DNA of 39,447 bases from positions 1 through 39,447 of the IMG/VR virus record IMGVR_UViG_3300013119_000145. The stretch is one strand, 5' to 3'. The stretch is from a virus. The notes beneath the pieces were generated by a model. That model saw nothing but the letters and a program-made list of their open reading frames with translations, searched no databases and was not told the DNA's origin. The position numbers and the translations under genes are program-made. Positions within the stretch are counted from its first letter, which is position 1; each line of letters starts with the position of its first letter. This document shows positions 210 through 38,561 of the stretch, piece after piece.

Positions 210-1718
210 ATGGGTTGGGCATCACAATTAGTAAACTTATTCCACAATAAATTACGTAGCCACACTGATGGACGTAAGTGGAAATACAATGCAACAAAGG
301 GTGTATGGAAAACATATGTATCATCAACTGATAGTTCTAAATTAGCAATTGATGGTAAAGCAGCTAACTCATCTCTATTAGATGGTTACTCGGCTAGTCA
401 CTTTGCTACTAAGTCTGAATTGAATAATATTGATTTAAGTAGTAAAGCTAATGTATCACATAGTCATTCTAATTATTTAGAAAATACTAAATCTTTAACA
501 GTTGATGCTTCTGGTCATACTAGATTTGATCCAAAGGGCTATAATTTTGAAATTGATTCTGATAATAGTCATAGAACAGTATTTGATTTTAATATTGATG
601 GTACATCAAAATGGGCTATAGAAGTAAATGAAACAGGTCAATCAGATTTGTGTATCTTCGATCGAGGTTATGATTTAAATTTTAGAGTAAAAGCAACTCA
701 GATGCAACTAGATCATAGTATAAAATTAGGTAATGATACTAGGGCAGCATCTACTGCAGGGGCAGGAGCATTAAGATGGAATGGATCAAAAATTCAGAAC
801 TCTGATGGAAGTGAATGGAAATCAGTTGCATCAGAATTAGTAACAGAATCATTTAACTATACTGGATCACCTCAAAGATGGAATAAGCCCGCCGGAGTAA
901 CATCAATTGATGTTGTTATGTGGGGTGCTGGAGGAGGCGGCGGTAATCCGGGTGGACACGATGGAGGCGGTGGCGGATTTTCTTCTGGTACAATCAATGT
1001 TTCCAATGTCTCACATTTAGATTTTGTTGTAGGACAAGGCGGGGAAGGAGAAAATTCTTGGTTTAATACTGGCAATGGCAATGGTTGTGGTGGGGGATTA
1101 ACAGGAATCTTTACAACATTCGATAGTGATAGAGTTGCAACACATGGTCGATCAGTTATGATTGCTGGAGGCGGAGGCGGTGGTGGTAATTCTAATGGAG
1201 GTGGAGCTGGCACTGGGGGTGGCGCTTCTGGTTCTAGAGGAAATGGCGGTTCAGCAGGACATCCGGGAACACAATCGGCAGGGGGCACTATACCAAACTA
1301 TGGAAATGGAACATGCACATCAAATTGTTCTGGTCAACAGCTGAGAGGTGGTAATGGTTGCGGTGGTGGTGAAGGTAGCTATGGAGATGGTGGCTCTTGG
1401 CCTAGTAGATATTGGGGTGGTGTTTGGTCTGCAGGCGCTGGAGGAAATGGCTGTAATGCTGGTGGTGGTGGCGGCGGCTATTGGGGTGGTGCTGGAGGCG
1501 GCGGCTCCACCAATGGTGGCAATGGTTCAGGGGGATCTGGATATATAGGTGGTCATAGTACTGCTCCGGTGTCTGTGGCAAGTACATCAGGTAATGGAAT
1601 AACTAAAACACCAGCCGGCACAAGTAATGAATATTATCCAGGCGGTGATATTGGTTATGGAGCTAGTGCAGAACTTAATGGCGGTAATGGATATATAAGT
1701 ATTACATACTGGACATAG
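210..1718 (+). CDS. glycine-rich tail fibre tip / adhesin
   Basis: This 502-residue protein is a likely receptor-binding tail-fibre tip. The first ~230 residues are an ordinary mixed-composition region (N-terminus MGWASQLVNLFHNKLRS; SHSHSNYLENT near residue 85). From about residue 236 to the end it is dominated by runs of glycine (GGGGG blocks with Asn, Ser, Ala and Trp), with several cysteines in the second half (for example TCTSNC). Glycine-rich motifs of this sort form the polyglycine-II tip of T4-like gp38 adhesins; I infer the same kind of fold here, not direct homology. A strong Shine-Dalgarno (TAAGGAG, 195-201) supports the ATG at 210. The next gene begins 2 bases after the stop and resembles tail-assembly chaperones, which fits a fibre gene with its helper. 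The Gly-rich half should vary quickly between relatives. Confidence 0.75.
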   Translation: MGWASQLVNLFHNKLRSHTDGRKWKYNATKGVWKTYVSSTDSSKLAIDGKAANSSLLDGYSASHFATKSELNNIDLSSKANVSHSHSNYLENTKSLTVDASGHTRFDPKGYNFEIDSDNSHRTVFDFNIDGTSKWAIEVNETGQSDLCIFDRGYDLNFRVKATQMQLDHSIKLGNDTRAASTAGAGALRWNGSKIQNSDGSEWKSVASELVTESFNYTGSPQRWNKPAGVTSIDVVMWGAGGGGGNPGGHDGGGGGFSSGTINVSNVSHLDFVVGQGGEGENSWFNTGNGNGCGGGLTGIFTTFDSDRVATHGRSVMIAGGGGGGGNSNGGGAGTGGGASGSRGNGGSAGHPGTQSAGGTIPNYGNGTCTSNCSGQQLRGGNGCGGGEGSYGDGGSWPSRYWGGVWSAGAGGNGCNAGGGGGGYWGGAGGGGSTNGGNGSGGSGYIGGHSTAPVSVASTSGNGITKTPAGTSNEYYPGGDIGYGASAELNGGNGYISITYWT

Positions 1719-1720
1719 AT

Positions 1721-2107
1721 ATGAATAATATAGAAGAAGCTTTAGCACAATTAAATATAGTAGGTTATACACTAGATTATACCCCAACTAATGAAGAGGA
1801 TTTTTTGAATTCTTTTTCTATTAGCTTATATAATAATGATGGGAGTTTTGATAGGGTAAGTAATAATCCAAATGATTTTGGGGTAACTTGGGATTTGTTA
1901 GTAAATGCATCTAATTTATGCTACTTAAGAAAAAGAAGAAATTCTTTATTAAAAGAGACTGATAAAATTACTCTAAAATATTATTCAATGGGGGAACCGG
2001 TTCCTGTTGATGTAGCAACATATCAACAAGCCCTAAGAGATATTACAGAAACATTTTCATCACTGGATAATGTTGAATGGCCAGAAAAACCTAATACAAT
2101 AAAATAG
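1721..2107 (+). CDS. tail fibre assembly chaperone-like protein
   Basis: This 128-residue protein ends in a region resembling the phage tail-assembly chaperone domain (Phage_tail_APC type): an Arg-rich helix (LRKRRNSLLKETD), a Tyr/Gln-containing helix (TYQQALRDITE) and a terminal VEWPEKP. The order 'RxxLLxxTD ... YxQALRDI ... WPxKP' is the typical pattern of that domain. The N-terminal ~65 residues have no motif I recognise. It starts 2 bases after the adhesin stop, the usual place for a fibre-specific assembly factor, so I infer that it helps fold or attach the glycine-rich protein. The start has no strong Shine-Dalgarno and probably relies on translational coupling. Confidence 0.6.
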   Translation: MNNIEEALAQLNIVGYTLDYTPTNEEDFLNSFSISLYNNDGSFDRVSNNPNDFGVTWDLLVNASNLCYLRKRRNSLLKETDKITLKYYSMGEPVPVDVATYQQALRDITETFSSLDNVEWPEKPNTIK

Positions 2108-2123: not shown

Positions 2124-2750
2124 ATGACTACAAAATACATAGATGCACACTACTTTTTTCAGGCGGCAGGTGATATTGTTCCCTTAAACCTTTGGTTAGA
2201 TGAAAGCATAATTCCAGAGGTTGATGCATTAAATGCAGATGAATCAACCCATCACATTCGTTATGAGGCAAATGAAAATGCCGGAGGAGATGATGATCAT
2301 TATGGCCAGCGAGGTGGATATGAATATAATCATGTACCTTCCAACTGGGGTCTACCCTCCAATGCCTCTACGGTAAGTAGCCTATTATACAATAAAGGAG
2401 ACTACTTATTTCCTCACCGAGATAAGTGGCGCCACCTAAATGAAGATGGTTCATTCACCAATGAATTCAATGGGTTACGCTTGGTTAACTTCGTTAATAA
2501 AACATCTCAAACAGACTTTTGTTTTGTTGTTGACGGTAAGATTGTAGAACTTGAAAAGGGTAGATGGTATGCAATTAATACCCAACGAGTTCATTATGGT
2601 TTTTCATATGCCGATGGTATTTACCACTTAGGCTGTGATTTATCATTTGCTCCTAAACACCGAGCTCAAACTACTAAGTTCCTATTGGATAATATGGCTT
2701 TCCCTCAACCATTTGATGATAGAAAAGGTGTTGACTGTATGAGAAACTAA
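2124..2750 (+). CDS. 2OG-Fe(II) oxygenase-like protein (aspartyl hydroxylase-like fold), copy 1
   Basis: This 208-residue protein has the hallmarks of a cupin-fold 2-oxoglutarate/Fe(II) oxygenase: an HxD pair in FPHRDKW (H98, D100) and a distal histidine in TQRVHYGFS (H157), with an Arg two residues before it. Family members hydroxylate amino-acid side chains or small molecules; the substrate here is unknown. It starts with GDIVPLN near residue 16 and ends with GVDCMRN. Both features recur in the gene at 13920-14531 (ending GVDCTRN), so the two are close paralogues flanking the radical SAM block. The ribosome-binding site AGGAG (2112-2116) supports the start. GC content looks higher than in most genes downstream. 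Confidence 0.65.
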   Translation: MTTKYIDAHYFFQAAGDIVPLNLWLDESIIPEVDALNADESTHHIRYEANENAGGDDDHYGQRGGYEYNHVPSNWGLPSNASTVSSLLYNKGDYLFPHRDKWRHLNEDGSFTNEFNGLRLVNFVNKTSQTDFCFVVDGKIVELEKGRWYAINTQRVHYGFSYADGIYHLGCDLSFAPKHRAQTTKFLLDNMAFPQPFDDRKGVDCMRN

Positions 2751-2764: not shown

Positions 2765-2772
2765 TATAAATA
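2765..2772 (+). promoter_or_regulatory. T4-type late promoter (TATAAATA) before the radical SAM run
   Basis: An exact TATAAATA lies only 5 bases before the ATG of the first radical SAM gene. T4 late transcripts start about six bases after this box, so the RNA would begin at or next to the start codon. A purine-rich AGGGGG just upstream (2759-2764) is too far from the ATG (13 bases) for a normal ribosome-binding site. No other TATAAATA was seen up to 13864, so this may drive the whole run. Confidence 0.6.
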
Positions 2773-2777
2773 CCTTT

Positions 2778-4235
2778 ATGAATATACCTTTAGATAATGT
2801 AGAAGCGGACGCTCAGTTCCCAACGAAATCCTTTTGTGCCCTCCCTTGGATGCATCTCTCCACTAGACCTAATGGTCATATGAGAGTTTGCTGTACCGCC
2901 AATGCGAGTGCCGTGGCAGTTAATGCTGCCTCTAATGAAAAAACAGCTTCTGATATAGGAATCCTCAAGAACGACGACGGTATGCCAGCTAACCTAGCCC
3001 ATACCCCGCTTCTTGAGGCTTGGAATAATACCTATATGAGGACTATCCGAAAACAAATGCTTGCTGGGGAAAAGCCTGATTCCTGTATTAAATGTTTTAA
3101 AGAGGAAGAAGCTGGCCATAACTCTAAGCGTATTTGGGAAACTCGTAAGTGGCTTAAGAAGTTAGGCCTTGAAGATATCATTGGTGGTACTAAAGAAGAT
3201 GGTTCAATTGAGCCTCGTATTAGATATATTGATCTTCGACCAGGTACTAAATGCCAGCTTGCTTGTGTTATGTGTTCCCCTAATGATTCATCAGGGTGGG
3301 TGGTAGAACATAAGAAGATACACCCTAAGTTACAAAATGAAAACCTTGAAAAGACAATGAGGTGGGAAAAGGAAACCGGTAAGCTTAAAGAGATCGGGGC
3401 TTCATATGCCTGGCATAAGAATAATCCTACATTTTGGGATGACCTATACCAACAGATACCCACCCTTGAACAACTCTATTGGGCTGGAGGGGAACCTCTT
3501 ATTATTGAAGAACATTATACCCTCCTTCAAAAGATTATTGATGATGGCCATGCCTCTAAGATTGAATTAAGATATAACTCAAATGGTCTTGAATGGGAAG
3601 ATAACCTATTCGATCTATGGAAAGAATTTAAAGAAGTTATATTTCATTTTTCCATTGATGATATTGGAGATAGACTACACTTCGTTAGATATCCTACCCC
3701 TTGGGAAGATGCTGAAAAACAAATACATAAACTAGATAACTATCCCCACGGCAACCTTAAGTTAACTACAGCTTGGACAGGTATTGCCCTTAATATATTC
3801 TATCTCCCTGAATTTATTAAGTGGAAGCTAAAATCAAACTTTAAACTTCTTAATAAATGGCCATCCGGGGCGGGTATTTTCTCTTGTCACCTAGCCTATT
3901 GGCCACCTCAATTGAACCTTAAGGCCCTTCCGGAAGACTTTAAGATAGATATACGTAATAAGTTTGAAGAAGAATTCTTCCCTTGGCTTGAAGAGAATTG
4001 GGAGTTATGCACAGGGGTAGCTGAAGCAGGGGTATCATATGATAAGTGGAGGGACTCTGAATATGGTATTGCACGCTTTGAAGGCCTCCTTAACTTTATG
4101 GATGCTGATGATTGGTCTGTAAGGTTACCTGAAATGGCCGAATGGTGTTATACAGTGGCTGAACAAAGAAATTTAAATTTTAATGAAATATATCCAGAGA
4201 TGGATTGGTTGGAGTGGTATGATAAACGCAGTTAA
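2778..4235 (+). CDS. twitch-domain radical SAM protein 1 (N-terminal twitch type)
   Basis: A 485-residue radical SAM enzyme. The SAM-binding 4Fe-4S motif CxxxCxxC is at C159, C163 and C166, and GGEP at 237-240. Before the core is a Cys-rich N-terminal module: CALPW (C20), a CC pair (C38, C39) and CxxC (C103, C106). This is the arrangement of the 'N-terminal twitch' radical SAM family, in which the extra cysteines likely hold a second iron-sulfur cluster. The same module occurs in the genes at 6314, 7636 and 8657, and the 6314 protein is the closest paralogue (both have GIL-K/R-x-DDG and GGEPLIIEEH). The reaction is unknown; radical SAM enzymes with such auxiliary clusters often modify peptides. 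Losing the only upstream start would remove conserved C20, which supports ATG 2778. Base composition is richer in GC than in the radical SAM genes that follow. Confidence 0.85.
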   Translation: MNIPLDNVEADAQFPTKSFCALPWMHLSTRPNGHMRVCCTANASAVAVNAASNEKTASDIGILKNDDGMPANLAHTPLLEAWNNTYMRTIRKQMLAGEKPDSCIKCFKEEEAGHNSKRIWETRKWLKKLGLEDIIGGTKEDGSIEPRIRYIDLRPGTKCQLACVMCSPNDSSGWVVEHKKIHPKLQNENLEKTMRWEKETGKLKEIGASYAWHKNNPTFWDDLYQQIPTLEQLYWAGGEPLIIEEHYTLLQKIIDDGHASKIELRYNSNGLEWEDNLFDLWKEFKEVIFHFSIDDIGDRLHFVRYPTPWEDAEKQIHKLDNYPHGNLKLTTAWTGIALNIFYLPEFIKWKLKSNFKLLNKWPSGAGIFSCHLAYWPPQLNLKALPEDFKIDIRNKFEEEFFPWLEENWELCTGVAEAGVSYDKWRDSEYGIARFEGLLNFMDADDWSVRLPEMAEWCYTVAEQRNLNFNEIYPEMDWLEWYDKRS

Positions 4236-5385
4236 AGATAGATCTAAGAAGTTTCAAATAGTTTGGGATTTAGGCCGACGTTGTACATACGAGTGTTCAT
4301 ATTGTCCACCCAATAGAAGAAATAAATGGAGTCCTCTAGTAACACTTGACGAACTTAAAAAGAATATGTCAAATTTAGATGACTATATTAATTTAATGGA
4401 TTCGGTTAGATACGATACATTATTAAAAGGGTTATCATTTACTGGAGGTGAACCTACTATTCACCCAGACTTCTTTAAATTTATGAAATATTTAAAAGAA
4501 GAATATCCAACATACAAAAGAGCAATAACAACCAATGGTGTATTTGGGTTAAAAACACTAGAGTTATGTAAAAATTATATGGACACCGGAACCATATCAT
4601 ATCACCCGGAAGGTACCAATAAAGAAAAGAAAATGGTAATACATAATATTATGATATTAGGTAAAGAAAATAATTTTAAAGTTAATGTGATGTTTCATAA
4701 AGACTATTTTGATGAGTGTGTTGAATTATGTGCAAAATTAAAGAAAGAAAAGATACCATATGTTCCTAGAGTTATTGGTGATGAAGCAAATGATGACCAC
4801 GGTGTTAAAAAGGGATACGCTCATGTTTATACAATAGAACAGATGCAATGGTTTAAAAACTTTTGGAAAAAACCACCCGCCCCTAAACTTATTGATGGTG
4901 TCACACAGAAGGATTTAGGTAGACCATGTTGTGGTAATAGAGTATTCAAATATAAAGAAGATAACGAGTGGTATAATTCAAAGTTTTTATCTAATACAGA
5001 TTTTATTGGGTGGGGCTGTATGGTTAATTGGTATTTCATATATATAAACCAAGAACTTGATTTAGCTTGGACTCATCAAACATGTGGTGTTAATTTAGAT
5101 GGAGATGTAGCACCTTTAGGGAAATGGTCTGAATTCGATAAGGTGGTAGATACATTAGAAACACATATAATTGAAAATCGTAAGATACCAATGATAAGAT
5201 GCCCTAAACATTATTGTGGTTGTGGTATGTGTATCGATAAAGCAAAGGATGATATAACAGCAATTGAGTTATTTAATGAACATATCCATAGTATATCACC
5301 TATCATACAACCATTTAAAGAATATAGTATTAATGATAATGATAAATTGACTAAATGGGCGTTTAACAACTTGGATAAAAGATGA
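4219..5385 (+). CDS. radical SAM protein 2 (SYCP type with Cys-rich C-terminus)
   Basis: From ATG 4219 this is a 388-residue radical SAM protein. CxxxCxxC falls at C22, C26 and C29 (sequence CTYECSYC), and GGEP at 76-79, followed by TTNG, a normal radical SAM core order. The C-terminal third has many cysteines (CCGN, GWGC, TCG, then CPKHYCGCGMC), consistent with an auxiliary cluster domain of SPASM or twitch type. It most resembles the gene at 11795-12916, not its immediate neighbours. The chosen start has GGAG at 4211-4214 and overlaps the upstream gene by 17 bases; an in-frame ATG at 4183 would lengthen the overlap to 53 bases. Codon use is much more AT-rich than in the gene before it. The substrate is unknown. 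Confidence 0.82.
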   Translation: MINAVKDRSKKFQIVWDLGRRCTYECSYCPPNRRNKWSPLVTLDELKKNMSNLDDYINLMDSVRYDTLLKGLSFTGGEPTIHPDFFKFMKYLKEEYPTYKRAITTNGVFGLKTLELCKNYMDTGTISYHPEGTNKEKKMVIHNIMILGKENNFKVNVMFHKDYFDECVELCAKLKKEKIPYVPRVIGDEANDDHGVKKGYAHVYTIEQMQWFKNFWKKPPAPKLIDGVTQKDLGRPCCGNRVFKYKEDNEWYNSKFLSNTDFIGWGCMVNWYFIYINQELDLAWTHQTCGVNLDGDVAPLGKWSEFDKVVDTLETHIIENRKIPMIRCPKHYCGCGMCIDKAKDDITAIELFNEHIHSISPIIQPFKEYSINDNDKLTKWAFNNLDKR

Positions 5386-6002
5386 AAATAGAATTAGAAT
5401 TAACTTCGGCTTGTAATGCCAAATGTCCTTTATGCATGAGAACAGTGTTGATGGAAAGAAATCAACCAGTTCAAATTGATAATTATACAATAAAAGAAAT
5501 CGAAACATATTTTAAGGATATGGATCTTAAAGGAGCCACTATAAAGTTTTGTGGTGTATTAGGTGATCCTATTGCATGTAGAGATCTATATGCAATAACA
5601 GAATATTTCATTATAGAAAAAGATGTAAAAATTATAGAAGTATCAACCAATGCTGGGTTAAAGACCAAAGAATTTTGGTCTAAATTTGGCCAGATATCTA
5701 AAGTATCAGGTAAGAAATTAGAGGTTCATTTTGCAATTGATGGTCTTACTCGAAATGATTATAGAGTAGGAGTTGATCTTAAAAAGGTATGGAACAATGT
5801 TAATGCATATTTAGATGCAGGCGGCTCTGGTGTATGGCAATATATTGTATTCGATTATAATGAGCACGAATTAGAAGATGCTAAAAAATTATCTAAAAAG
5901 AAAGGTATGCGATTTATAACTCGCATTGCATGGAAGAATCAAATATCAAAAAGAGATAAGGCTAAAATTGTAAGAAAATCTATTAGGAGAAATTATGATT
6001 AG
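5382..6002 (+). CDS. radical SAM core protein 3a, lacking its SPASM domain
   Basis: This 206-residue protein is a nearly bare radical SAM core. CxxxCxxC is at C11, C15 and C18. The usual GGE motif is replaced by CGVLGDP (57-63), and STNAG and AIDGL follow at the expected distances. It stops just where the fused paralogue at 10743 goes on into a linker and SPASM-like domain; that missing part is encoded separately by the next gene, which overlaps by 8 bases. I infer that the two polypeptides form one split enzyme. The start overlaps the previous stop by 4 bases (ATGA). A single-base frameshift is unlikely because the partner has its own ribosome-binding site and the same split occurs again at 9823-10750. 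Confidence 0.8.
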   Translation: MKIELELTSACNAKCPLCMRTVLMERNQPVQIDNYTIKEIETYFKDMDLKGATIKFCGVLGDPIACRDLYAITEYFIIEKDVKIIEVSTNAGLKTKEFWSKFGQISKVSGKKLEVHFAIDGLTRNDYRVGVDLKKVWNNVNAYLDAGGSGVWQYIVFDYNEHELEDAKKLSKKKGMRFITRIAWKNQISKRDKAKIVRKSIRRNYD

Positions 6003-6321
6003 AGTACATAATATATCGTGTCAACATTTAGATAAAGATGAAATATTTCTCGGTGCGGATCATAGAGTATATCCATGTTGTTATTTGTATGATTCAAAAA
6101 TACAATTCGATGAAGATATTAAAAGAATCTACAACCATTATGGAGAAGATTTTAATAATTTAAAGGTACATACATTAAAAGAGATATTAGATAATCCTTG
6201 GTTTTCAGGTGAATTGGAGGAATCATTAAATAAAGACCACCCACTAAATTGTGCTAGATGTTGGAAGTCATGTGGTGATGGTGGAATTAGAAAAACAAAA
6301 AAGGAGGTTGATCGTGACTAA
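5995..6321 (+). CDS. stand-alone SPASM/twitch-like Cys-rich protein 3b
   Basis: This 108-residue protein has no radical SAM core but carries the Cys pattern of the C-terminal SPASM-like domain of the fused paralogue at 10743-11804: C9, then VYPCCY (C28, C29), then CxxCxxxC (C86, C89, C93). In the family such cysteines hold auxiliary 4Fe-4S clusters and form part of the substrate site. Its ATG lies within the end of the core gene, 8 bases of overlap, and AGGAGA a few bases upstream gives it an independent but coupled start. I infer that it docks on protein 3a. The end overlaps the next gene by 8 bases. Confidence 0.75.
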   Translation: MIRVHNISCQHLDKDEIFLGADHRVYPCCYLYDSKIQFDEDIKRIYNHYGEDFNNLKVHTLKEILDNPWFSGELEESLNKDHPLNCARCWKSCGDGGIRKTKKEVDRD

Positions 6322-7639
6322 TACTATGTGTCCACTCCCGTGGAATTCTATTAACCTAAGAAATAATGGTGATTTAAGAATTTGTTGTAATGCTAATTCA
6401 TACTCTGAACGTAAGGGTATATTAAGAAAGGATGATGGAACCCCATATAATGCTGGACATGATGATTGGAATGAAGCACGAAATTCTGAATTAGCAAAAG
6501 AAATAAGAGCAGATATGCTTAAAGGCGAGTGGAATCCTGAATGCGAGCGGTGTAGGCAGGAAGAAAATAGTGGTCTTAGATCCAGACGTGAATATGAATT
6601 AGCTGATTATGATATAGATTTAAAGCACGCATTGGAAATAACTAAGGAAGATGGTACACTTAATGTTGATAAACAAGATATTGAATATATGGATATTCGT
6701 TATGGCAATTTCTGTAATTTAAAATGTAGAATGTGTGGCCCGACTGATTCACATACATGGTATGGTGATTATGTTAAAATGACTAATAATACAACATATA
6801 AAGATACTCACGATATTATTGAGTTATGGAAAAAACCTAATGGTAAATATACCACTGAACAATATAATTGGTTTAAAGAACCAGATCATTACTGGTCCCA
6901 ATTTGATAAGCATACAGAAAACGTACAAAAGCTTTATATTGTTGGAGGGGAACCTTTAATTATTGAAGAACATGTTGAGTCATTACAAAGGTTAGTTGAT
7001 TCAGGTAAAGCAGAAAATATTGAAATAGAATATAATAGTAATTTAACTAATATTACTAATCGTATGCTTAAGTTATGGGAGGAATTTTTCTGTATAAGAA
7101 TTGGAGCCAGTATTGATGGGTATGGTAAAGTATTTGAATATCAAAGACCACCTGGGAATTGGGAATCAGTATATAAAAACTTAAAGAAACTTAACGATAA
7201 TGATGATGTTAACTTTAAACTTTGGAATACATACACTGTTACAGTATTTAATGTATTCCATTTTCCTGAGTTCATTAGATGGAAGTTGGAGGATTCAGGT
7301 TTAGATAATTTTAATAGCCCATCATCACCTAGACCTACTATTTCTGAGCATATGTGTCACGGCCCAAAATATTATAATATTAAAGTACTACCTAACATGA
7401 TTAAAGACGAAATTGAAGATGTTTATGAAGACTATATTGAATGGGTATATACAACAGACTTTAATGATAATATTAAAAACCACTATAAGGATGTATTAAG
7501 AGGTGTGGTTAAATTTATGAAATCTGAAGATTATTCTAATCACTATAATGACTTTATTAAGCATACTAAAGAATTGGATATCATTAGAAACCAAAACATC
7601 ATTGATATAGTACCACAATATAAAGAGATGTTTGAATGA
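6314..7639 (+). CDS. twitch-domain radical SAM protein 4 (N-terminal twitch type)
   Basis: A 441-residue paralogue of the protein at 2778. From the GTG at 6314 the N-terminal twitch cysteines are C6 (CPLPW), C24/C25 (CC) and C77/C80, then the radical SAM CxxxCxxC at C134, C138 and C141 and GGEP at 211-214. The GTG start is chosen because AAGGAGG ends 6 bases upstream; an ATG at 6326 would sit 18 bases from that site. An upstream in-frame extension is possible but would add residues not present in paralogues. The start overlaps the stand-alone SPASM gene by 8 bases. Its mid-region keeps the same order as the 2778 protein, including FPEFIRWKL, matching LPEFIKWKL there. Function beyond radical SAM chemistry is unknown. 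Confidence 0.83.
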   Translation: MTNTMCPLPWNSINLRNNGDLRICCNANSYSERKGILRKDDGTPYNAGHDDWNEARNSELAKEIRADMLKGEWNPECERCRQEENSGLRSRREYELADYDIDLKHALEITKEDGTLNVDKQDIEYMDIRYGNFCNLKCRMCGPTDSHTWYGDYVKMTNNTTYKDTHDIIELWKKPNGKYTTEQYNWFKEPDHYWSQFDKHTENVQKLYIVGGEPLIIEEHVESLQRLVDSGKAENIEIEYNSNLTNITNRMLKLWEEFFCIRIGASIDGYGKVFEYQRPPGNWESVYKNLKKLNDNDDVNFKLWNTYTVTVFNVFHFPEFIRWKLEDSGLDNFNSPSSPRPTISEHMCHGPKYYNIKVLPNMIKDEIEDVYEDYIEWVYTTDFNDNIKNHYKDVLRGVVKFMKSEDYSNHYNDFIKHTKELDIIRNQNIIDIVPQYKEMFE

Positions 7640-8664
7640 AAGAATACTGTAATGCCCCTTGGGTATCATTATATTATTCAGGATCAAATGGATATAAACC
7701 ATGTTGTTCTTGGGGAGGTGATACATTTACAGGTGCCATAGAAGAATATTTTAAATCTGATTTTTTAAATAATATTAAAAGAGATGATTATGATTATGAA
7801 TATACATGTAGGGAATGCATAAAAGTTGATAGTATTAATACATTATCGACCAGAACTAATCTTAATAAACATTATGCTATTGAGGATGGTATACAATCAT
7901 TAGACTATAGACCCACAAATAAATGTAATCTCGCTTGCAAAACATGTACACCAAGAGCATCATCTTTAATAGCTAAGTTAAGAGATAAAGATGTTGTTAA
8001 TTTAGGATATAATGATATAATTGATTATGATTTTAATCTTAAGAAATTAAAAATATTGGGTGGGGAACCTTCTATTGAAGATTTATCTTTTGAGGCTATC
8101 GAGAAGTTTGGTAACACCAACACTGAAATTAGTATCACCACTAATGGTATGGGTATAAGTAACAGATGGTTAACAGCATTAAAATCATGTAAGTCATTAG
8201 GCATTAATATATCAATTGATGGTACTGAAAAGGTATTTGAATATATACGATACCCTGGTAAGTGGGATAAAATAAAAAGAAATATCCAAATATATGAAGA
8301 CAATTTTAAAAGTAAAGATATGAAATTTCATTTGACTGTTTCAGTGTTTAATTACTTAGTAATAGATAAATGGTTAGATTATTTTATGGAATCTAATATT
8401 AAATTGCTTCAATACCCTTTAACATATCCTGAATGGCAATCATTGGATATTATACCACCAGAGATAAAGGATCTTATATTTGATTATTTGTATAGTGTTA
8501 ATCATAAATATGCATTTAAAGCAATAGAAATATTAGAGGCTTCTATATTTAGACCTGAGCTTTTAAGATCATTTCAAATTAATATCTTGAAACAGGATAA
8601 ATTATATAAAGATAATTTATTCAACGTTGACCCTAGATTTAAAGCATTAATGAATTATGATTAA
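7636..8664 (+). CDS. twitch-domain radical SAM protein 5 (N-terminal twitch type)
   Basis: A 342-residue, shorter member of the N-terminal twitch group. Twitch cysteines are C5 (CNAPW), C23/C24 (CC) and C58/C61; the SAM cluster motif is C97, C101, C104 (CNLACKTC) and GGEP is at 142-145, with TTNG and SIDG following. The spacer between twitch and core is shorter than in the 2778 and 6314 proteins, accounting for the smaller size. It starts in an ATGA overlap with the upstream stop, so translation is probably coupled. It overlaps the next gene by 8 bases. Very AT-rich. The substrate is unknown. Confidence 0.83.
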   Translation: MKEYCNAPWVSLYYSGSNGYKPCCSWGGDTFTGAIEEYFKSDFLNNIKRDDYDYEYTCRECIKVDSINTLSTRTNLNKHYAIEDGIQSLDYRPTNKCNLACKTCTPRASSLIAKLRDKDVVNLGYNDIIDYDFNLKKLKILGGEPSIEDLSFEAIEKFGNTNTEISITTNGMGISNRWLTALKSCKSLGINISIDGTEKVFEYIRYPGKWDKIKRNIQIYEDNFKSKDMKFHLTVSVFNYLVIDKWLDYFMESNIKLLQYPLTYPEWQSLDIIPPEIKDLIFDYLYSVNHKYAFKAIEILEASIFRPELLRSFQINILKQDKLYKDNLFNVDPRFKALMNYD

Positions 8665-9826
8665 ATGTGCGTATCCATGGATGCATTTAAATGTTACTAT
8701 CTCAGGTAATATCACACCATGTTGTATATCATTCAGTGGTGATGATCCTCAATGGTGGCATAATGTTAAATTAAGTGATGGATTATATTCGAGTGAACAT
8801 ATTAAGATGCGTAATGATATGCGTAATGATATATGGCCTAAAATATGTAAGATATGTGAGGATACTGAGAAAGAAGGTGTTATATCACATAGAGAAGCTA
8901 GTACAAAACATTTGGATCTAGATATAGATTATAATAAGGAGCCTAATAAGTTAGAATTTCTTGGTATTACATTTAATAATATTTGTAACTTAGGTTGTAG
9001 AATGTGTAACCCAGATTCATCATCTTTATTAAGTGATGAATATAAAAAGCATAATGAATACCCTATATTTTTAACTGATTATAATAAGAAAGAAATAACA
9101 ACTACATTTAAAGAAGATGAAAAGATTAAATTAACTAAAGATGCTATTGTTAATGGGCTTCAAATATTAAAAGTTACTGGGGGTGAACCATTTGCTTCAA
9201 GTCATTTTATGGATCTTATTAATTGGTGTATTGATAAGGGCTACGCTAAAAATCTTTCTTTACGAATAACAACCAATGGTATAAAATTTAATAGTGTGTT
9301 ATTGAATAAGCTGTTGAAGTTTAAAAAAACTAGATTTACAATAAGTATTGATGGGGTCAATAAACTATTTAACTATATTAGATGGCCAGGTAAGTGGGAT
9401 CAAGTTGAAGTTTCAATTGATATGTTAATGAATTATATCAATAAACACCCTGATAAATTTACCCAAGTACAATTGAATGTAGTGTTACAATCATATAATG
9501 TCTTACAATTAGCTGATATATATAATTGGTGCACCAATAAAGGGTTAAAATTTAATGTTGATACTAATTTTAAACCTAGAGATGCAGAATTTAATGTATT
9601 ATATCTACCAGATTCAGTTATAGATGAGGCTATAAATAGAATAAAGGATATTGATAATGATAAAATACGCGCGGTTATTAAAATATTGTGTATGTCTAAT
9701 ATAAACTATAAGAAGTTAAATGATCTATTAACCTCTACTAAAATATTAGATAAACATCGTGGCCAAGATTATAGAAATTATTTGGATAGTAAAATGGTTG
9801 CAGTATTAGAGATGTTAGATATATGA
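8657..9826 (+). CDS. twitch-domain radical SAM protein 6 (N-terminal twitch type)
   Basis: A 389-residue N-terminal twitch radical SAM protein. Cysteines C4 (CAYPW), C22/C23 (CC) and C64/C67 form the twitch pattern; C110, C114, C117 (CNLGCRMC) form the radical SAM site; GGEP is at 175-178 and ITTNG and SIDG follow. The region between the SAM cysteines and GGEP is longer than in the 7636 protein, with a charged Lys/Asp/Glu stretch. Start and stop overlap both neighbours (8 and 4 bases). Hand inspection shows it among the most AT-rich genes of the run, which may mean that it has a different recent history from the first gene. Confidence 0.83.
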   Translation: MIKCAYPWMHLNVTISGNITPCCISFSGDDPQWWHNVKLSDGLYSSEHIKMRNDMRNDIWPKICKICEDTEKEGVISHREASTKHLDLDIDYNKEPNKLEFLGITFNNICNLGCRMCNPDSSSLLSDEYKKHNEYPIFLTDYNKKEITTTFKEDEKIKLTKDAIVNGLQILKVTGGEPFASSHFMDLINWCIDKGYAKNLSLRITTNGIKFNSVLLNKLLKFKKTRFTISIDGVNKLFNYIRWPGKWDQVEVSIDMLMNYINKHPDKFTQVQLNVVLQSYNVLQLADIYNWCTNKGLKFNVDTNFKPRDAEFNVLYLPDSVIDEAINRIKDIDNDKIRAVIKILCMSNINYKKLNDLLTSTKILDKHRGQDYRNYLDSKMVAVLEMLDI

Positions 9827-10443
9827 GTTGGTTTAATAAAAATGAGATACAAAGAATACAAATAGAGATAACAAACTATTGTAATGCTTCTTGTCATTTA
9901 TGCTCTAGAGAAAATAAGAAGGTTAAATTCAACAATAATAATATAACACTAAACCAAATTAAAAAATCATATACTGGACAATGGCCTTCTTTAACTAATA
10001 TACATTTATGTGGTAATGTAGATGAACCAACTATTAATCCAGAAATTATAGATATAATATATCACCTATCAACTTTAAATAATAATATTAAGTTTAACAT
10101 TGCTACAAATGGTGGTACACGAAATGAAAAGTTTTGGTCTGAATTAGGATCTATTAACAATGTTATGGTAACATTTGGTATTGATGGCCTTAAGGATACA
10201 AATCATCTATATAGAAAAAATGTCAAGTGGGGTCTATTAGAAAAAAATTATAAAGCTTTTATTAGAGCCGGCGGTAAAGCTACTTGGCAATTTATACCAT
10301 TTGAACATAATAAACATCAAATTAGTGAAGCTAAAGATCTAGCAATGAGTGAAGGATTCTCTGAATTTATTATTAGAAAAACAATAAGAGAAAATACTAA
10401 AATTGATATTGATGTACCTACAGGACATACTAATGAAAGATAA
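9823..10443 (+). CDS. radical SAM core protein 7a, lacking its SPASM domain
   Basis: A second bare radical SAM core of 206 residues, the same length as the protein at 5382. The SAM motif is C20, C24, C27 (CNASCHLC). The GGE position reads CGNVDEP (63-69), close to CGNHGDP in the fused paralogue at 10743. ATNGG and GIDGL follow. The SPASM-like partner is the next gene, overlapping by 11 bases. It begins in an ATGA overlap with the upstream gene. Splitting of the same family at the same domain border in two places in this run argues that it is a stable architecture and not a sequencing error. Confidence 0.8.
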   Translation: MSWFNKNEIQRIQIEITNYCNASCHLCSRENKKVKFNNNNITLNQIKKSYTGQWPSLTNIHLCGNVDEPTINPEIIDIIYHLSTLNNNIKFNIATNGGTRNEKFWSELGSINNVMVTFGIDGLKDTNHLYRKNVKWGLLEKNYKAFIRAGGKATWQFIPFEHNKHQISEAKDLAMSEGFSEFIIRKTIRENTKIDIDVPTGHTNER

Positions 10444-10750
10444 AGTTATATGCCAAGCTAAAGTTGGTAATGGTAAATATGCATTCAATACTGATATGGG
10501 TAACATATATGTGTCACACCAAGGATATGTAGTACCTTGTTGTTGGATGGGAACCGATCATCAATTAGAACTACTATGGAAAAATAGTAATATTAATAAA
10601 GAAACTCATAATATAAAACACGAATCAATTGAAAACATATTAGAAGGACCTATGTGGAAATGGATTGATGATAATATAAATGATTATCCATTATGTATTA
10701 AGAAATGCGTTAATAAAGAATTTGATGCCTGGTCATATAAGTATGTTTAG
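10433..10750 (+). CDS. stand-alone SPASM/twitch-like Cys-rich protein 7b
   Basis: From ATG 10433 this is a 105-residue Cys-rich protein aligning by eye with the C-terminal part of the fused protein at 10743: C7, then YVVPCCW (C36, C37), an Ile/Glu-rich helix (IENILEGPMWKWI) and CxxxC (C88, C92) near the end. The CCW motif is shared exactly with the fused paralogue (HPCCW). It has no SAM-binding motif, so it probably acts with 7a as an auxiliary-cluster and substrate-binding subunit. An AGGA about 8 bases upstream supports the start; the frame is open a little further upstream, but only with a TTG. It overlaps the next gene by 8 bases. Confidence 0.73.
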   Translation: MKDKVICQAKVGNGKYAFNTDMGNIYVSHQGYVVPCCWMGTDHQLELLWKNSNINKETHNIKHESIENILEGPMWKWIDDNINDYPLCIKKCVNKEFDAWSYKYV

Positions 10751-11804
10751 CTATAATGAAATAGAACAAGTACATTTAGAACCTACACAGAAGTGCCAGG
10801 CTCGTTGTCCTATGTGTGATAGAAATAAAGATGGTGGTGAAACAAATCAATACCTAACCAATGCTGATTTATCATTGGATGATATTAAGAAGATGTTTCC
10901 TATTCCCTTCGTTAAACAATTAAAGAATCTTTATATGTGTGGTAACCATGGTGATCCTATCTTTGCACCGGAGTGCTTAGAAATAATGGAGTGGTTAAGA
11001 GAAGTTAATCCAAATATATACCTATCATTAACTACCAATGGTGGAGCAAGAGATCCTGAATGGTGGGAAGCATTAGCACCTATTGTGAATCAAGTTATCT
11101 TTTCTGTTGATGGTCTCGAAGATACAAATCATTTATATAGACAAGGTGTTAATTGGGAATCAGTAGAAGAAAACATGTCGGCCTTCTGTGATGCTGGTGG
11201 TGTAGCCCAATGGGTATTCCTTGTCTTTAACTATAATGAGCATCAAGTTGAGGAAGCAAAGGAGTGGTCTAAAATGATAGGGGTTAAAGAGTTTGTCATT
11301 AAGAAAAGTGGCAGGTATATATCCACGGCCAAACTTAAAAAGAAAGGTAACAAACAAGCAACTGATCGAAAGGGTAATGATACAACATTGTTGAGTCCAC
11401 CCAAGGCTAGAAAATATCAAAATAAATCTAATAAAGATTATGATGAGATCGAAATTAAATTTGGTAATTTAAAGAATTATTTACAAATTGCTGAAGTCGA
11501 ATGTAAGGCAATACCTAAGAAAGAGGTTTATATCACAGCTGAAGGTTATGTGCATCCATGCTGTTGGACCGCGGGTAGAATGTATAAATGGTGGAGAGGC
11601 CCAGGTGAAGGACAAATATGGGAACATATTAATAAGTTTGAAACGAATGCCCTTAAAACTACTATTGAAGATATTGTCGATAATGGTTTCTTTAAATCAA
11701 TTGAAGATTCATGGAGTAAAGACGGTTTTGAAAACGGTAAGCTAAAAGTATGTGCTTTAAAATGTAATAAGAAATATGATCCCTTCTCGGCCCAATGGCA
11801 ATGA
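10743..11804 (+). CDS. radical SAM/SPASM-like protein 8 (fused form)
   Basis: This 353-residue protein carries in one chain what the pairs at 5382/5995 and 9823/10433 carry in two. The core has C18, C22, C25 (CQARCPMC), CGNHGDP at 66-72, TTNGG and SVDGL. A Lys-rich linker covers about 190-250, followed by the SPASM-like part with C254, HPCCW (C273, C274) and CALKC (C337, C341). The start is ATG 10743, just before the core; the frame is open upstream within the 3' end of the preceding gene, but those residues are not shared by paralogues. Overlap with the upstream gene is 8 bases, and there is no clear Shine-Dalgarno, so coupling is likely. GC content is somewhat higher than in the split copies. 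Confidence 0.83.
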   Translation: MFSYNEIEQVHLEPTQKCQARCPMCDRNKDGGETNQYLTNADLSLDDIKKMFPIPFVKQLKNLYMCGNHGDPIFAPECLEIMEWLREVNPNIYLSLTTNGGARDPEWWEALAPIVNQVIFSVDGLEDTNHLYRQGVNWESVEENMSAFCDAGGVAQWVFLVFNYNEHQVEEAKEWSKMIGVKEFVIKKSGRYISTAKLKKKGNKQATDRKGNDTTLLSPPKARKYQNKSNKDYDEIEIKFGNLKNYLQIAEVECKAIPKKEVYITAEGYVHPCCWTAGRMYKWWRGPGEGQIWEHINKFETNALKTTIEDIVDNGFFKSIEDSWSKDGFENGKLKVCALKCNKKYDPFSAQWQ

Positions 11805-12916
11805 ATGATTTAAAATGGAGTGAATATGACTTCACTAAAATACCCTTTGATGACATAGTACAGTTTGGCCAACGGTCAATGCTACACAGAGATACGTTTA
11901 CAGTATCTTGGCTACTTGGGAGATTTTGTAACTATAGATGTTCTTACTGTTGGCCTTACGCTAGGTCCGACAGAAAAGACTTTAGGCCACTCGATGTGTG
12001 TATTAATACTATTGATTCTATTAAAGAACAAGCAAGGGAGCGAGGGTTTAATTCATTCCATTTTAGTCTATCCGGCGGGGAACCTACATTCCATCCGGAG
12101 TATTTAGAAATAGTAAAGTATCTTAATGATGATGCAAAGAATTGTAACTATCATTCGTTACATATGACATCAAATTGTTCTAGACCTATTGAATGGTTTA
12201 AAGAATACTATGAAGCTTCTAAAGATATGCATAGGGTTTCAGTAACTGCTTCTTACCATAGGGAACATGTTAAGAGTATTGAAGAGTTTGCTGATAAACT
12301 TGAGTTCATGCAAGAGCATGGTATACAAGTTACAGTTAATATGGTTATGTTACCTAATTTATTTGAGGAACATTATGAGGATGCTTTATACTTCCATGAA
12401 AGAAATATCAATGTGACATTAAAACCTCAAAGTGATCCAACAGCATCATTTGTTGTTGATGGATACACAAAGGATATGATGGATAGGTTACATAATGGAA
12501 TGCCTCAACGAAACTTTACTGATATAAAAACCAAGGTTAAAAGACCAAAGAGGTCTTTGAATGCATTAGCCAAAGAATCAAATGAATCAATCCCTGCACA
12601 TTACCAAATAGAATTTACAGATAAAAATGGTAAGTTATGGTATATGGATCAAGCAGAAAGATTCAATGCATTCAATTTTAATAATTTTAATGGGTGGGAA
12701 TGTTCATCAGGATATAGATCTATTATTATCAGAGAGCCAGATGGTACGGTTAAGCGCTCTTATTCCTGCCATGATGTGCCTATTGGTCATGTTGAAACGG
12801 GGTTTAAATTATATGATGGGCCTAAGTTATGTACAACAAATGGTTGTGTATCAAGTGCTGATTCGAAAATACCAAAGAGGAAAATAGGATGGAAGATCCC
12901 ATTGTGGAATACATAG
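11795..12916 (+). CDS. radical SAM protein 9 (SYCW type)
   Basis: A 373-residue radical SAM protein, the last of the run. CxxxCxxC is C45, C49, C52 (CNYRCSYC) and GGEP is at 94-97; an SN pair replaces TTNG (MTSNCS). After a long middle region with Lys/Arg-rich residues, the C-terminal third has a Cys set (WECSSG, SYSCHD, LCTTNGC) compatible with an auxiliary cluster. It is closest to the protein at 4219, so the run starts and ends with similar types. Two ATGs compete: 11795 (10-base overlap) and 11801 (ATGA overlap of 4 bases, as elsewhere in the run); neither has a clear Shine-Dalgarno. The substrate is unknown. Confidence 0.82.
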   Translation: MAMNDLKWSEYDFTKIPFDDIVQFGQRSMLHRDTFTVSWLLGRFCNYRCSYCWPYARSDRKDFRPLDVCINTIDSIKEQARERGFNSFHFSLSGGEPTFHPEYLEIVKYLNDDAKNCNYHSLHMTSNCSRPIEWFKEYYEASKDMHRVSVTASYHREHVKSIEEFADKLEFMQEHGIQVTVNMVMLPNLFEEHYEDALYFHERNINVTLKPQSDPTASFVVDGYTKDMMDRLHNGMPQRNFTDIKTKVKRPKRSLNALAKESNESIPAHYQIEFTDKNGKLWYMDQAERFNAFNFNNFNGWECSSGYRSIIIREPDGTVKRSYSCHDVPIGHVETGFKLYDGPKLCTTNGCVSSADSKIPKRKIGWKIPLWNT

Positions 12917-13095
12917 ATTCATTTGATTTAAGAGAATTACAAATTGAAGCTGCATTAGTTATATCAAATCATGATGCGACTTCTGGTTGGATAAAGAAAT
13001 TTAAAGCCGAGCATGATTCACAACAATTTTATAAAAATGTTATATTATGGCATTATAATAAGTATGGTTTAATGCCTACGACTCATTATAATTAG
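12889..13095 (+). CDS. small unknown protein closing the radical SAM run
   Basis: This 68-residue protein starts inside the end of the last radical SAM gene (28-base overlap), with GAGG and AGG purine patches shortly upstream. It is mainly helical in character, acidic at the N-terminus (MEDPIVEYIDSFDLRE), and ends in NKYGLMPTTHYN. There is no cysteine, no signal peptide and no motif I recognise. It is convergent with the minus-strand oxygenase gene, overlapping it by 20 bases. Its size and position make it a conceivable accessory protein or even a modified substrate of the radical SAM enzymes, but nothing in its sequence proves either. Confidence 0.55.
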   Translation: MEDPIVEYIDSFDLRELQIEAALVISNHDATSGWIKKFKAEHDSQQFYKNVILWHYNKYGLMPTTHYN

Positions 13096-13098
13096 GCA
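13073..13098. terminator. possible bidirectional hairpin between convergent genes
   Basis: TGCCTA (13073-13078) and TAGGCA (13093-13098) form a perfect 6-bp inverted repeat with a 14-base loop, exactly where two convergent genes meet and overlap. It could stop transcription from both sides, but the loop is large and there is no clear T-run on the plus strand. Confidence 0.25.
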
Positions 13099-13654
13099 GC
13101 ATTTTCATTATAACATCCATATTTTCTTTAGTTAAAAATACAGACATTATAACATGGTATATATCATCAGAAAATGAAAATGATCCATGAACCTTCCTAG
13201 TATTTAAAATATATGGAACACCAGGTTTGAATTGGATAAATTTATCATCTAAATAAAACATCCATTTATCTATTTCCGTCTTATTTAAAAACACAACAAT
13301 TCTAAATTGCTCATTGTATCGCCAAGCATCTCTATGAGGGGCAAAATATGATCCTTTCATTAACTTAAATGCTCTACATTTAGCAAGAGAATCAAACTTA
13401 TCAAAGAATTCTTTCACGGTAGGACACTGGTACATATTCTCATTATACGCTTGGTTTTTATCGTGCTTGTTAGAATTTTTTTCACCTAATGAATCGATAT
13501 CACCATTAAAGGTTATACCTTCTTTATTGTTTATTGTAGGTATCCATGTCTTTAAAGATTTAAGCTCTTCAATAGCTTTAGGTGAGAATTTATAATCAAG
13601 TTCGATGGCATCACCATAAGAACTTAATATACTATGAAGACTTTGTGATATCAT
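13076..13654 (-). CDS. 2OG-Fe(II) oxygenase-like protein, minus-strand copy
   Basis: This 192-residue protein belongs to the same broad group as those at 2124, 13920 and 14531. It has an N-terminal GDAIELD (compare GDAIPLN at 14531), the iron-binding HxD in APHRDAW (H107, D109) and a distal His in NTRKVHGSFS (H156). The middle (about 40-80) is a long, Asn/Lys-rich insert not seen in the others. It lies on the minus strand and overlaps the upstream DUF6356-like gene by 23 bases, making a two-gene unit. The substrate is unknown. Because the strand is opposite to the radical SAM run, it must be read from a different promoter. Confidence 0.6.
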   Translation of the reverse strand: MISQSLHSILSSYGDAIELDYKFSPKAIEELKSLKTWIPTINNKEGITFNGDIDSLGEKNSNKHDKNQAYNENMYQCPTVKEFFDKFDSLAKCRAFKLMKGSYFAPHRDAWRYNEQFRIVVFLNKTEIDKWMFYLDDKFIQFKPGVPYILNTRKVHGSFSFSDDIYHVIMSVFLTKENMDVIMKMLPNYNES

Positions 13655-13919: not shown

Positions 13920-14531
13920 ATGATAAATGCAAATCATTTCTTCCAGTCAGCGGGAGATATAGTACCTTTAAATGTTTGGGCGCCCGAAGGTGTTGTTGAA
14001 CAACTAAAAGAACTACATGCTGATAAATCTAAACAGGCAATGTATCGTAATGAAGGCGGTACTAATGACCATGAATCATCTAAAGCGGGTGGTATTGATT
14101 TAATTGATATACCTGAAGATTGGGGAATCCCAAGCCATGCGGGTACAACAGGATCAATTATGTATAATAAAGGAGACTATTTATTCCCTCATAGAGATAA
14201 ATGGCGTTATATGAATCTTGATGGTACATACAAAGAAGGTGCTGATGGTAATGGTATTAGACTAATTTGTTTTGCAAATCACAATTCAGTTACAGACTTT
14301 ACATTTATCTATGAAGGCAAGGTAGTATATTTAGAGCCAAGAAGATGGTATGCCGTTAATACACAGAGAGTTCATTGGGGATTCTCATTTGTTGATGGTG
14401 TATATCATATGGGGTGTGAATTAAAGTTTAATGATGAAGACCGTGCAGCAACAACAGAATTCCTATTAACAAATATGGAATTTGGCCAACCTATTGATGA
14501 TAGAAAGGGTGTTGATTGTACTAGAAACTAA
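13920..14531 (+). CDS. 2OG-Fe(II) oxygenase-like protein, copy 2
   Basis: A 203-residue close paralogue of the protein at 2124. Both have GDIVPLN near the N-terminus, YNKGDYLFPHRDKWR around the iron ligands (here H91 and D93), NTQRVHWGFS with the distal His (H152), and the same ending DDRKGVDC-x-RN. The conserved HxD...H set fits a 2-oxoglutarate/Fe(II) oxygenase; the target is unknown. It has its own late promoter and ribosome-binding site, unlike copy 1, which follows the adhesin genes. The next oxygenase gene begins in its stop codon (TAATG). Confidence 0.65.
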   Translation: MINANHFFQSAGDIVPLNVWAPEGVVEQLKELHADKSKQAMYRNEGGTNDHESSKAGGIDLIDIPEDWGIPSHAGTTGSIMYNKGDYLFPHRDKWRYMNLDGTYKEGADGNGIRLICFANHNSVTDFTFIYEGKVVYLEPRRWYAVNTQRVHWGFSFVDGVYHMGCELKFNDEDRAATTEFLLTNMEFGQPIDDRKGVDCTRN

Positions 14532-15073
14532 TGTTAGCTAGTGAATTGCATAACCTATATGGGGATGCTATACCGTTAAATGTTTTTGCTGAAGTCGGTG
14601 AAGTAGATCATAATAATATTAAGAGGGCATGGGATTATCCTAATATTGGCATGAAGGAAATTCATGTTCAAAAAACTATACCCTCTTATTTCAATATACC
14701 AGAAGAGCTAAAATATACTAAGCCTGTCCATGTACGTGGTATGCGCGGTACATTCTTTACTCCTCATAGGGATCTTATATATATTAATGATACCAATAAC
14801 TGGGTTAGACTCACATGTTTTGCTAATAATGCTAGACCTGAGGAGTGTACTTTTGTTGTTGATAATAAGGTAATGAATTTTGAAGCGGGTAGATGGTATA
14901 TATTAAATCCTAGAAAGACTCATCATAGTTCATATTGGGTAGATAATTGTATACATTATGTAATTAATCTTAGCCTATTAGATAATAAAACTTGGAATTG
15001 GCTATTTTCCAATATACAATTTCATGAAAGGCGTGACACAGGTGAAACAGACACAGGTGAAAATAACAAATAA
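14531..15073 (+). CDS. 2OG-Fe(II) oxygenase-like protein, third type
   Basis: A 180-residue relative of the preceding gene with a more divergent sequence. GDAIPLNVF opens the protein, TPHRDLI supplies the HxD (H79, D81) and PRKTHHSS the distal His (H131). Its start overlaps the upstream stop by one base, so translation is coupled. The C-terminus ends in a short repeated DTGET-DTGEN, encoded by a 15-base tandem repeat that is also read in another frame as the beginning of the next gene. No strong evidence tells what it hydroxylates. Confidence 0.6.
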   Translation: MLASELHNLYGDAIPLNVFAEVGEVDHNNIKRAWDYPNIGMKEIHVQKTIPSYFNIPEELKYTKPVHVRGMRGTFFTPHRDLIYINDTNNWVRLTCFANNARPEECTFVVDNKVMNFEAGRWYILNPRKTHHSSYWVDNCIHYVINLSLLDNKTWNWLFSNIQFHERRDTGETDTGENNK

Positions 15074-27895: not shown

Positions 27896-28237
27896 ATGAG
27901 TGATGATTTAGATAATGATTATGTAAAGATCAAAAGAAATCTCTTTGATCTAACCGACCAAGGTACTGAAGCTATTGAGTTAATGATGGAATTAGCTCGT
28001 GAATCAGAACACCCTAGGGCCTTTGAAGTACTCGGCCAGCTTATCAAACAAAATGCAGAGATTGGTGAAAAGATCTTAAAGATGCATAAGACTAAAAAGG
28101 AAGTTGAAAAAGTCGATGATAAACCAGCGCTAGAAGATAAAGGAGTTACTAATAATAATGTATTCATTGGGTCGACTGCTGACCTACAAAAAATGCTTCG
28201 TGATGAGATCGTGATTAATGCAACCAAAGAAGATTAG
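27896..28237 (+). CDS. 16: small terminase subunit gp16
   Basis: A 113-residue homologue of T4 gp16, which recognises DNA for packaging and stimulates gp17. The central helical hairpin (EAIELMMELARESEHPRAFEVLGQLIKQNAEIGEKIL) is the conserved coiled-coil core; N- and C-termini are shorter than in T4 (about 164 in all). The C-terminal VFIGSTADLQKML is typical of marine relatives. It overlaps the methyltransferase gene by 20 bases, so that insert is translationally tied to it. Confidence 0.88.
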   Translation: MSDDLDNDYVKIKRNLFDLTDQGTEAIELMMELARESEHPRAFEVLGQLIKQNAEIGEKILKMHKTKKEVEKVDDKPALEDKGVTNNNVFIGSTADLQKMLRDEIVINATKED

Positions 28238-34295: not shown

Positions 34296-34303
34296 TATAA
34301 ATA
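34296..34303 (+). promoter_or_regulatory. T4-type late promoter (TATAAATA) before the head-core genes
   Basis: An exact TATAAATA in the 26-base gap after gene 20, with only 5 bases between the box and the ATG at 34309. The transcript would begin at about the start codon. It probably drives the run 67-like to 23, where I see no other such box. Confidence 0.7.
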
Positions 34304-34308
34304 ACATT

Positions 34309-38548: not shown

Positions 38549-38556
38549 TATAAATA
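38549..38556 (+). promoter_or_regulatory. T4-type late promoter (TATAAATA) after gene 23
   Basis: An exact TATAAATA with only 5 bases before the ATG at 38562, the third such very close spacing in the window. No Shine-Dalgarno fits in between. Confidence 0.7.
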
Positions 38557-38561
38557 TAATC

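Follow-up and report, generated by a model that had tools for sequence, protein, structure and literature searches.

Large sets of radical S-adenosylmethionine (SAM) genes have been described in phages before. The Campylobacter phages CP220 and CPt10 encode 11 and 12 radical SAM proteins, respectively, and carry an exchangeable five-gene cluster, which includes a glycine amidinotransferase (PMC2853527). For the marine T4-like genome TARA_ERS488813_N000010, Nishimura et al. 2017 counted 12 radical SAM genes (PMC5332604). In pelagimyophages the host recognition cluster, a variable region between VrlC and a neck gene, harbors tail fibres and glycosyltransferases, and radical SAM proteins are mentioned as well (PMC7029224). 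Here, we analyze an array of radical SAM genes at positions 2778-12916 of the IMG/VR virus record IMGVR_UViG_3300013119_000145. The whole record of 39447 bases, a fragment of a larger genome of probably around 150 kb, is referred to as the window. A previous interpretation made from the letters of this DNA alone (the sequence-only reading) had taken such clusters for undescribed, which does not hold in view of CP220, CPt10 and the TARA genome. In a profile search CP220 itself displayed 11 radical SAM domains. According to family profiles, its cluster contains C- and S-type proteins (as defined below), two genes of nucleotide-sugar-transferase fold and an amidinotransferase, whose family occurs in CP220 and 13 related marine loci and is not found in the window.

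A search of the record with PF04055 revealed exactly nine places, all of which (9/9) scored above the gathering score. These radical SAM cores are distributed over eleven overlapping genes at the positions given by the sequence-only reading (Table 1), and their translations exhibit the CxxxCxxC motifs CQLACVMC, CTYECSYC, CNAKCPLC, CNLKCRMC, CNLACKTC, CNLGCRMC, CNASCHLC, CQARCPMC and CNYRCSYC. All-against-all BLAST returned the same three subfamilies that had been proposed from the motifs: four proteins with an N-terminal CxxPW...CC twitch (T1-T4), three in which GGE is replaced by CGVLGDP (C1), CGNVDEP (C2) or CGNHGDP (C3), and two SYC types keeping GGEP (S1, S2). Thereby, T4 as a gene label refers to the family and not to phage T4. 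The cut-off of NF033640 (N_Twi_rSAM, NCBIfam; 170 bits for the whole model) was passed by T1, T2 and T4, and T3 is not a strict member of this family since it fell just short with 168.1 bits. The nearest solved sequences in the PDB were SkfB for T1, CteB for C3 and anSME for S2. A fold search with T1 yielded weak radical SAM matches only, and none of the cores reached the cut-off of the NCBIfam equivalogs, which comprised MoaA, PqqE, NirJ, QueE and others as well as peptide maturases.

All ten junctions within the array overlap by 4-17 nucleotides (nt). A twelfth gene of the set, a small open reading frame (ORF) termed sml, overlaps the end of S2. Directly before the array a T4-type late promoter motif, TATAAATA, ends 5 nt upstream of the ATG of T1. 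The total number of TATAAATA copies in the window was not above chance; 8 of the 13 plus-strand copies, though, were located in front of genes in non-coding DNA, which accounts for 1.6% of the window. Consequently, the motif is probably functional here, and the late operon suggested by the sequence-only reading is plausible. Three genes in total begin 5 nt past such a motif (2765-2778, 34296-34309 and 38549-38562), so that late transcripts would be nearly leaderless. As previously proposed, the record is of phage origin: beyond 20 kb it carries PhoH-like, neck, terminase, sheath, tube, portal, protease, scaffold and capsid genes in T4 order, which were named by their match to Phage C48C1, and the array is placed upstream of gp13/gp14. 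The closest deposited terminase large subunit (TerL) is that of Phage C48C1 (Kyanoviridae; 63% identity), a phage with one radical SAM match of its own.

Two members of the array are divided into separate polypeptides. C1 and C2 (206 amino acids, aa) consist of the core alone and are each followed by a separate SPASM protein; in their relatives both parts form one chain of about 310-330 aa. Both stand-alone SPASM proteins exceeded the PF13186 gathering score of 21.5 bits (23.2 and 27.4 bits), with the fused copy in C3 being just below it (20.2 bits). Similar splits were observed in L058/L060, where a gene is inserted between both parts, and in L095, where the overlap likewise measures 8 nt; among the loci of Bdellovibrionia, L111, L114 and L117 show them. 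In 160 C-type and 103 S-type proteins both parts are fused. A sequencing error or frameshift as the origin of the C1 and C2 splits was ruled out by the normal overlaps and by the recurrence of the splits in other viral and bacterial arrays. The auxiliary-cluster domain of C1 and C2 would be supplied as a separate subunit, presumably paired with the adjacent core.

One IMG/VR scan with T1 returned 151 relatives, 80 of which were retrieved as viral loci. The 21-kb stretches around the relatives contain up to 14 radical SAM genes. Every whole viral record checked (36/36) carries radical SAM genes, 4-20 each, and eight of these 36 also gave a TerL match, among them those whose radical SAM genes number 16 and 15. 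Reciprocal best hits were obtained for T1 in 80/80 viral and 21 cellular-genome loci, for C3 in 58 viral and 19 cellular loci, for S2 in 32 and 14, for T2 in 31 and 15, for S1 in 25 and 10, and for C1 in 12 viral loci. Judged by these comparisons of sequences, T1, C3, S2, T2, S1 and C1 are a recurring orthologous core. The reciprocal best hits elsewhere indicate that the gene families of the window are older than the virus. A recent tandem duplication in this virus was ruled out by the separate orthologs that every main gene has in other loci. The enzymes differ, as noticed in the sequence-only reading, because they belong to old, separate ortholog families rather than being recent local copies.

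The order of the genes recurs as well. Neighbouring pairs were T1-C3 (36 loci), T1-T2 (25), T1-S1 (22), C3-S2 (20) and S1-C1 (13), and the array of the window unites the orders T1-S1-C1 and T1-T2-T3, which are found apart elsewhere. For about 72 radical SAM pairs from related arrays the ratio of non-synonymous to synonymous substitutions (dN/dS) was mostly 0.03-0.25, corresponding to purifying selection and indicating that the genes are used. With recurring pairs, intact frames and low dN/dS, the genes are neither scattered nor decayed. In the array-bearing viral contigs L062, L066 and L070 small ClpP, ClpS-like and Fe-S-assembly-like genes, named by inspection, adjoin the core module.

A scan of 84,980 species genomes yielded 18 loci. 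Some of them are contigs of marine metagenome-assembled genomes with virus-like arrays, whose viral nature is not proven, and the remaining ones come mainly from Bdellovibrionia and Bacteriovoracaceae, on contigs reaching 936 kb in which the C3-T1-S2 core is often accompanied by T2, S1 and C1. Whole genomes of the Bdellovibrionia group contain 16-37 NF033640 matches, one array comprising about 14 such genes in 30 kb, and none was found over the cut-off in 14 control genomes. A core predator gene was ruled out, T1 being present in only 11 of the 119 genomes that were sampled from the class. In the paralogue-rooted trees of T1, C3 and S2 the viral sequences fell inside paraphyletic bacterial ones in all three cases (3/3), with some basal nodes of low support and limited sampling. 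The simplest reading of this nesting is that the core passed from bacteria to viruses as a unit. The Bdellovibrionia chromosomes L111-L117, from relatives of the predatory Bdellovibrio, exhibit big twitch radical SAM arrays together with amidinotransferase, carbamoyltransferase and split core/SPASM pairs.

The small protein sml accompanies the viral arrays. Its family (about 73 aa) occurs in about 30 viral loci, always near C3, S2 or T1, and was not found beside the T1-C3-S2 core of Bdellovibrionia. The residues R15, Q18, H42, S44 and P63 are invariant, and the structure predicted by AF2 consists of five helices (predicted local distance difference test, pLDDT, 92). No Pfam match was obtained for sml, and searches of the PDB and of folds gave no meaningful match, which is no evidence for a new fold. 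In L036 (19348-20409) sml forms one chain with a second domain, which L028 encodes as separate proteins. The HLSRAM motif of this domain recalls GT-B glycosyltransferases, but the domain had no database match. Two unrelated L028 proteins, which had been clustered in through this fusion, were excluded from the sml alignment.

With respect to function, the sequence-only reading had suggested a late pathway modifying a virion or surface component. Such a pathway fits the context. We tentatively favor that the array builds or decorates a glycan of the envelope or virion, or else a substituent of such a glycan (amino acid or phosphoryl). Three lines of evidence led to this preference: the enrichment of glycosyltransferase-2 genes near the bacterial arrays, the presence of nucleotide-sugar genes in part of the viral arrays and the position in the host recognition cluster. 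The CP220 cluster, with its C and S families, its amidinotransferase and its two genes of nucleotide-sugar-transferase fold, points in the same direction. In nine Bdellovibrionia genomes 19 of 150 glycosyltransferase-2 genes lie within 5 kb of NF033640 genes (3.5 expected), and 10 lie within 10 kb of T1 (0.8 expected). In L103 the core adjoins an epimerase-like gene, an asparagine synthase, a glycosyltransferase-2 and an acyltransferase, and some viral arrays include UDP-glucose/GDP-mannose dehydrogenase, DegT sugar aminotransferase, CMP-sugar-type cytidylyltransferase or carbamoyltransferase genes. The array, located in the host-recognition region of the phage, would then be expressed late and provide tailoring enzymes that activate C-H bonds. 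Each enzyme would cleave SAM at the [4Fe-4S] cluster bound by CxxxCxxC, generating a 5'-deoxyadenosyl radical for H-atom abstraction, with the twitch and SPASM auxiliary clusters assisting substrate binding or oxidation. The near-constant core (T1, C3, S2, often T2, S1 or C1) would act on a shared intermediate, and the additional, exchangeable radical SAM enzymes would contribute changes specific to each lineage. The benefit may lie in an altered surface of infected cells or progeny, e.g. against superinfection or adsorption to debris.

Several observations weigh against a glycan substrate. The p-value of the glycosyltransferase-2 enrichment is optimistic, as glycosyltransferases come clustered. 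No nucleotide-sugar or clear glycosyltransferase gene was identified in the 39 kb of the window virus. A glycosyltransferase-like family is present in only 30 of 48 long viral loci, and such families of the viral loci are named by their DxD motifs only, their profiles having no PDB match. Moreover, the very strong conservation of T1 is more easily reconciled with an unchanging substrate than with a glycan that diversifies, and the nearest solved sequences of T1 and C3 are peptide maturases.

The latter point leads to the main alternative, which we consider somewhat less probable than the glycan: the enzymes may mature a protein or peptide, such as a tail fibre or adhesin, a capsid protein or sml, introducing cross-links, epimers or methylations stepwise. 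SPASM and twitch domains are typical of peptide maturases. Along with SkfB and CteB, the closest solved relatives include anSME for S2, but similarity to PDB entries is mostly limited to the common radical SAM core. Partners in other arrays (Asp/Arg hydroxylase, tryptophan halogenase, arginine deiminase/amidinotransferase) would suit amino acids. As for the substrate, the array comes after an adhesin and a chaperone gene, and the sequence-only reading had pointed to its place behind an adhesin gene (210-1718); neither gene, however, has a reciprocal best hit in any other array locus, so a link to this adhesin is not supported. Another candidate would be sml, the small protein encoded regularly beside the core genes in about 30 loci, but it is predicted to be folded without a leader/core layout, which makes it unlikely as a precursor of a ribosomally synthesized and post-translationally modified peptide (RiPP), and it was not found beside the Bdellovibrionia core. 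A classical RiPP cluster is unlikely, since the array has no gaps able to hold a precursor ORF and no precursor-peptide ORF was found in or next to it; scores for maturase equivalogs were far below cut-off. Weighing the maturase relatives and amino-acid-type partners against the three lines of evidence named above, we give preference to the glycan.

Auxiliary metabolic genes boosting the cofactor or redox metabolism of the host, as put forward for CP220/CPt10 by Timms et al. 2010 (PMC2853527), appear improbable for this array. Fe-S assembly genes do occur in some array-bearing viruses, as in marine T4-like genomes (PMC5332604), but no cofactor-enzyme equivalog of NCBIfam reached its cut-off, and nine or more enzymes with one late-type promoter beside fibre genes are unlike one central pathway. 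We regard a modification of nucleic acids or nucleotides, e.g. to a 7-deazaguanine- or viperin-like product for anti-restriction or anti-defence, as equally improbable. QueC-like PP-loop genes are present in 34 loci and also adjoin radical SAM genes in the Vibrio phage KVP40, and S2 weakly resembles viperin; the scores, though, were 31 bits against a cut-off of 260 for the QueE model TIGR03963 and at best 40 bits against 180 for the viperin model NF038283. No QueC, QueD or FolE partners were seen among the window genes examined, and the array sits with fibre genes rather than with genes of DNA metabolism.

Returning to the glycan, a more extended proposal can be formulated, which we consider unlikely in its entirety: some Bdellovibrionia and T4-like phages may have a combinatorial tailoring system in common, in which a fixed T1-C3-S2 core, taken over by the viruses from bacteria as a unit, would make a shared envelope or virion intermediate, and up to about 17 further, rapidly exchanged radical SAM enzymes, some as core and SPASM subunits, would provide lineage-specific host-interaction chemistry.

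The features of the array and its surroundings are outlined in Table 1. Four HxD...H paralogues (OX1-OX4) flank the array on both sides and matched no Pfam family. An assignment as Asp/Arg beta-hydroxylases was tried and not supported: hhalign with shallow alignments revealed no relationship and the PDB gave nothing, for which reason these proteins are named by motif only. Further downstream, tandem paralogues of 272 and 266 aa (23104-24713) each contain a HExxH-type motif (THEVAHIRD, IHEYAHVG) and are possibly metalloproteases, judging from this motif; the first of them had no NCBIfam match. A Rossmann methyltransferase-like protein (28218-28844, GAGANIW motif), inserted directly before the gene of the terminase large subunit, had no NCBIfam match either.

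Table 1. Coordinates of the radical SAM array and of neighbouring features in the window.
Feature	Description	Position	Strand	Basis
Adhesin	glycine-rich putative tail adhesin	210..1718	+	PF21722 E 0.0075 (below cut-off); phrog_1589 E 2e-9
Chaperone	tail fibre assembly chaperone	1721..2107	+	PF16778 E 4e-13; phrog_4912 E 4e-15
OX1	HxD...H protein, oxygenase-like by motif only	2124..2750	+	alignment with OX2-OX4; invariant PHRD...N...H
TATAAATA	T4-type late promoter motif, directly before array	2765..2772	+	
T1	N-terminal-twitch radical SAM, core ortholog	2778..4235	+	NF033640 375 bits
S1	SYC/GGEP radical SAM	4219..5385	+	PF04055 E 5e-12
C1 core	CGVLGDP type, core domain only	5382..6002	+	PF04055 E 8e-8; C-family profile positions 12-210
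C1 SPASM	stand-alone SPASM completing C1	5995..6321	+	PF13186 E 8e-5; profile positions 247-351
T2	N-terminal-twitch radical SAM, GTG start	6314..7639	+	NF033640 365 bits
T3	N-terminal-twitch radical SAM	7636..8664	+	NF033640 168 bits; phrog_14086 E 6e-33
T4	N-terminal-twitch radical SAM	8657..9826	+	NF033640 248 bits
C2 core	CGNVDEP type, core domain only	9823..10443	+	PF04055 E 6e-10; profile positions 4-200
C2 SPASM	stand-alone SPASM completing C2	10433..10750	+	PF13186 E 4e-6; ATG start at 10433
C3	CGNHGDP core fused to SPASM, core ortholog	10743..11804	+	reciprocal best hits; alignment
S2	SYC/GGEP radical SAM, C-terminal Cys cluster, core ortholog	11795..12916	+	reciprocal best hits; alignment
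sml	68-aa conserved helical protein	12889..13095	+	sml family hidden Markov model E 1e-26
OX2	HxD...H protein, OX1 paralogue	13079..13654	-	alignment
OX3	HxD...H protein, 54% identity to OX1	13920..14531	+	BLAST, alignment
OX4	HxD...H protein	14531..15073	+	alignment
SGNH	SGNH/GDSL-like protein, weak	15559..16332	+	NF047475 E 4e-8, 33 bits vs cut-off 325

If the interpretation is correct, many marine T4-like viruses spend 10-20 kb on oxygen-sensitive radical chemistry, and, apart from gene counts, an extensive biosynthetic capability encoded by viruses has escaped notice. For testing, the conserved core offers nine defined enzymes that can be expressed, together with one small partner protein, and the stand-alone SPASM subunits would make it simple to study intermolecular auxiliary clusters of radical SAM enzymes. 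That viruses and Bdellovibrionia have the core in common suggests that these two kinds of killers of bacteria share a chemistry. In the open-access literature searched, neither the ortholog core nor the late operon was described, and the same holds for the split SPASM subunits, for sml and for the connection with Bdellovibrionia.

In comparison with the known systems, CP220 and CPt10 likewise carry a tight phage-borne cluster with several radical SAM genes that is swapped between close phages, but with five radical SAM genes per cluster instead of nine, in phages of an unrelated host group and with no N-terminal-twitch members detected in that cluster. TARA_ERS488813_N000010 is, like the window virus, a marine T4-like virus, and its radical SAM genes are similar in number; PMC5332604 only counts them, without order, families or core. 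With pelagimyophages the array shares its place, that of the host recognition cluster upstream of gp13/gp14 (PMC7029224), although no radical SAM array is analyzed in that study. The cultured, T4-related Vibrio phages KVP40 and K566 have five and six radical SAM matches of twitch type, some next to a QueC-like gene; these groups are smaller, and their proteins are about 25% identical to those of the window. The Bdellovibrionia NF033640 arrays, finally, are chromosomal, and sml was not found beside their core, but they belong to the same family and display the same T1-C3-S2 core, up to about 14 genes within 30 kb and the same core/SPASM splits.

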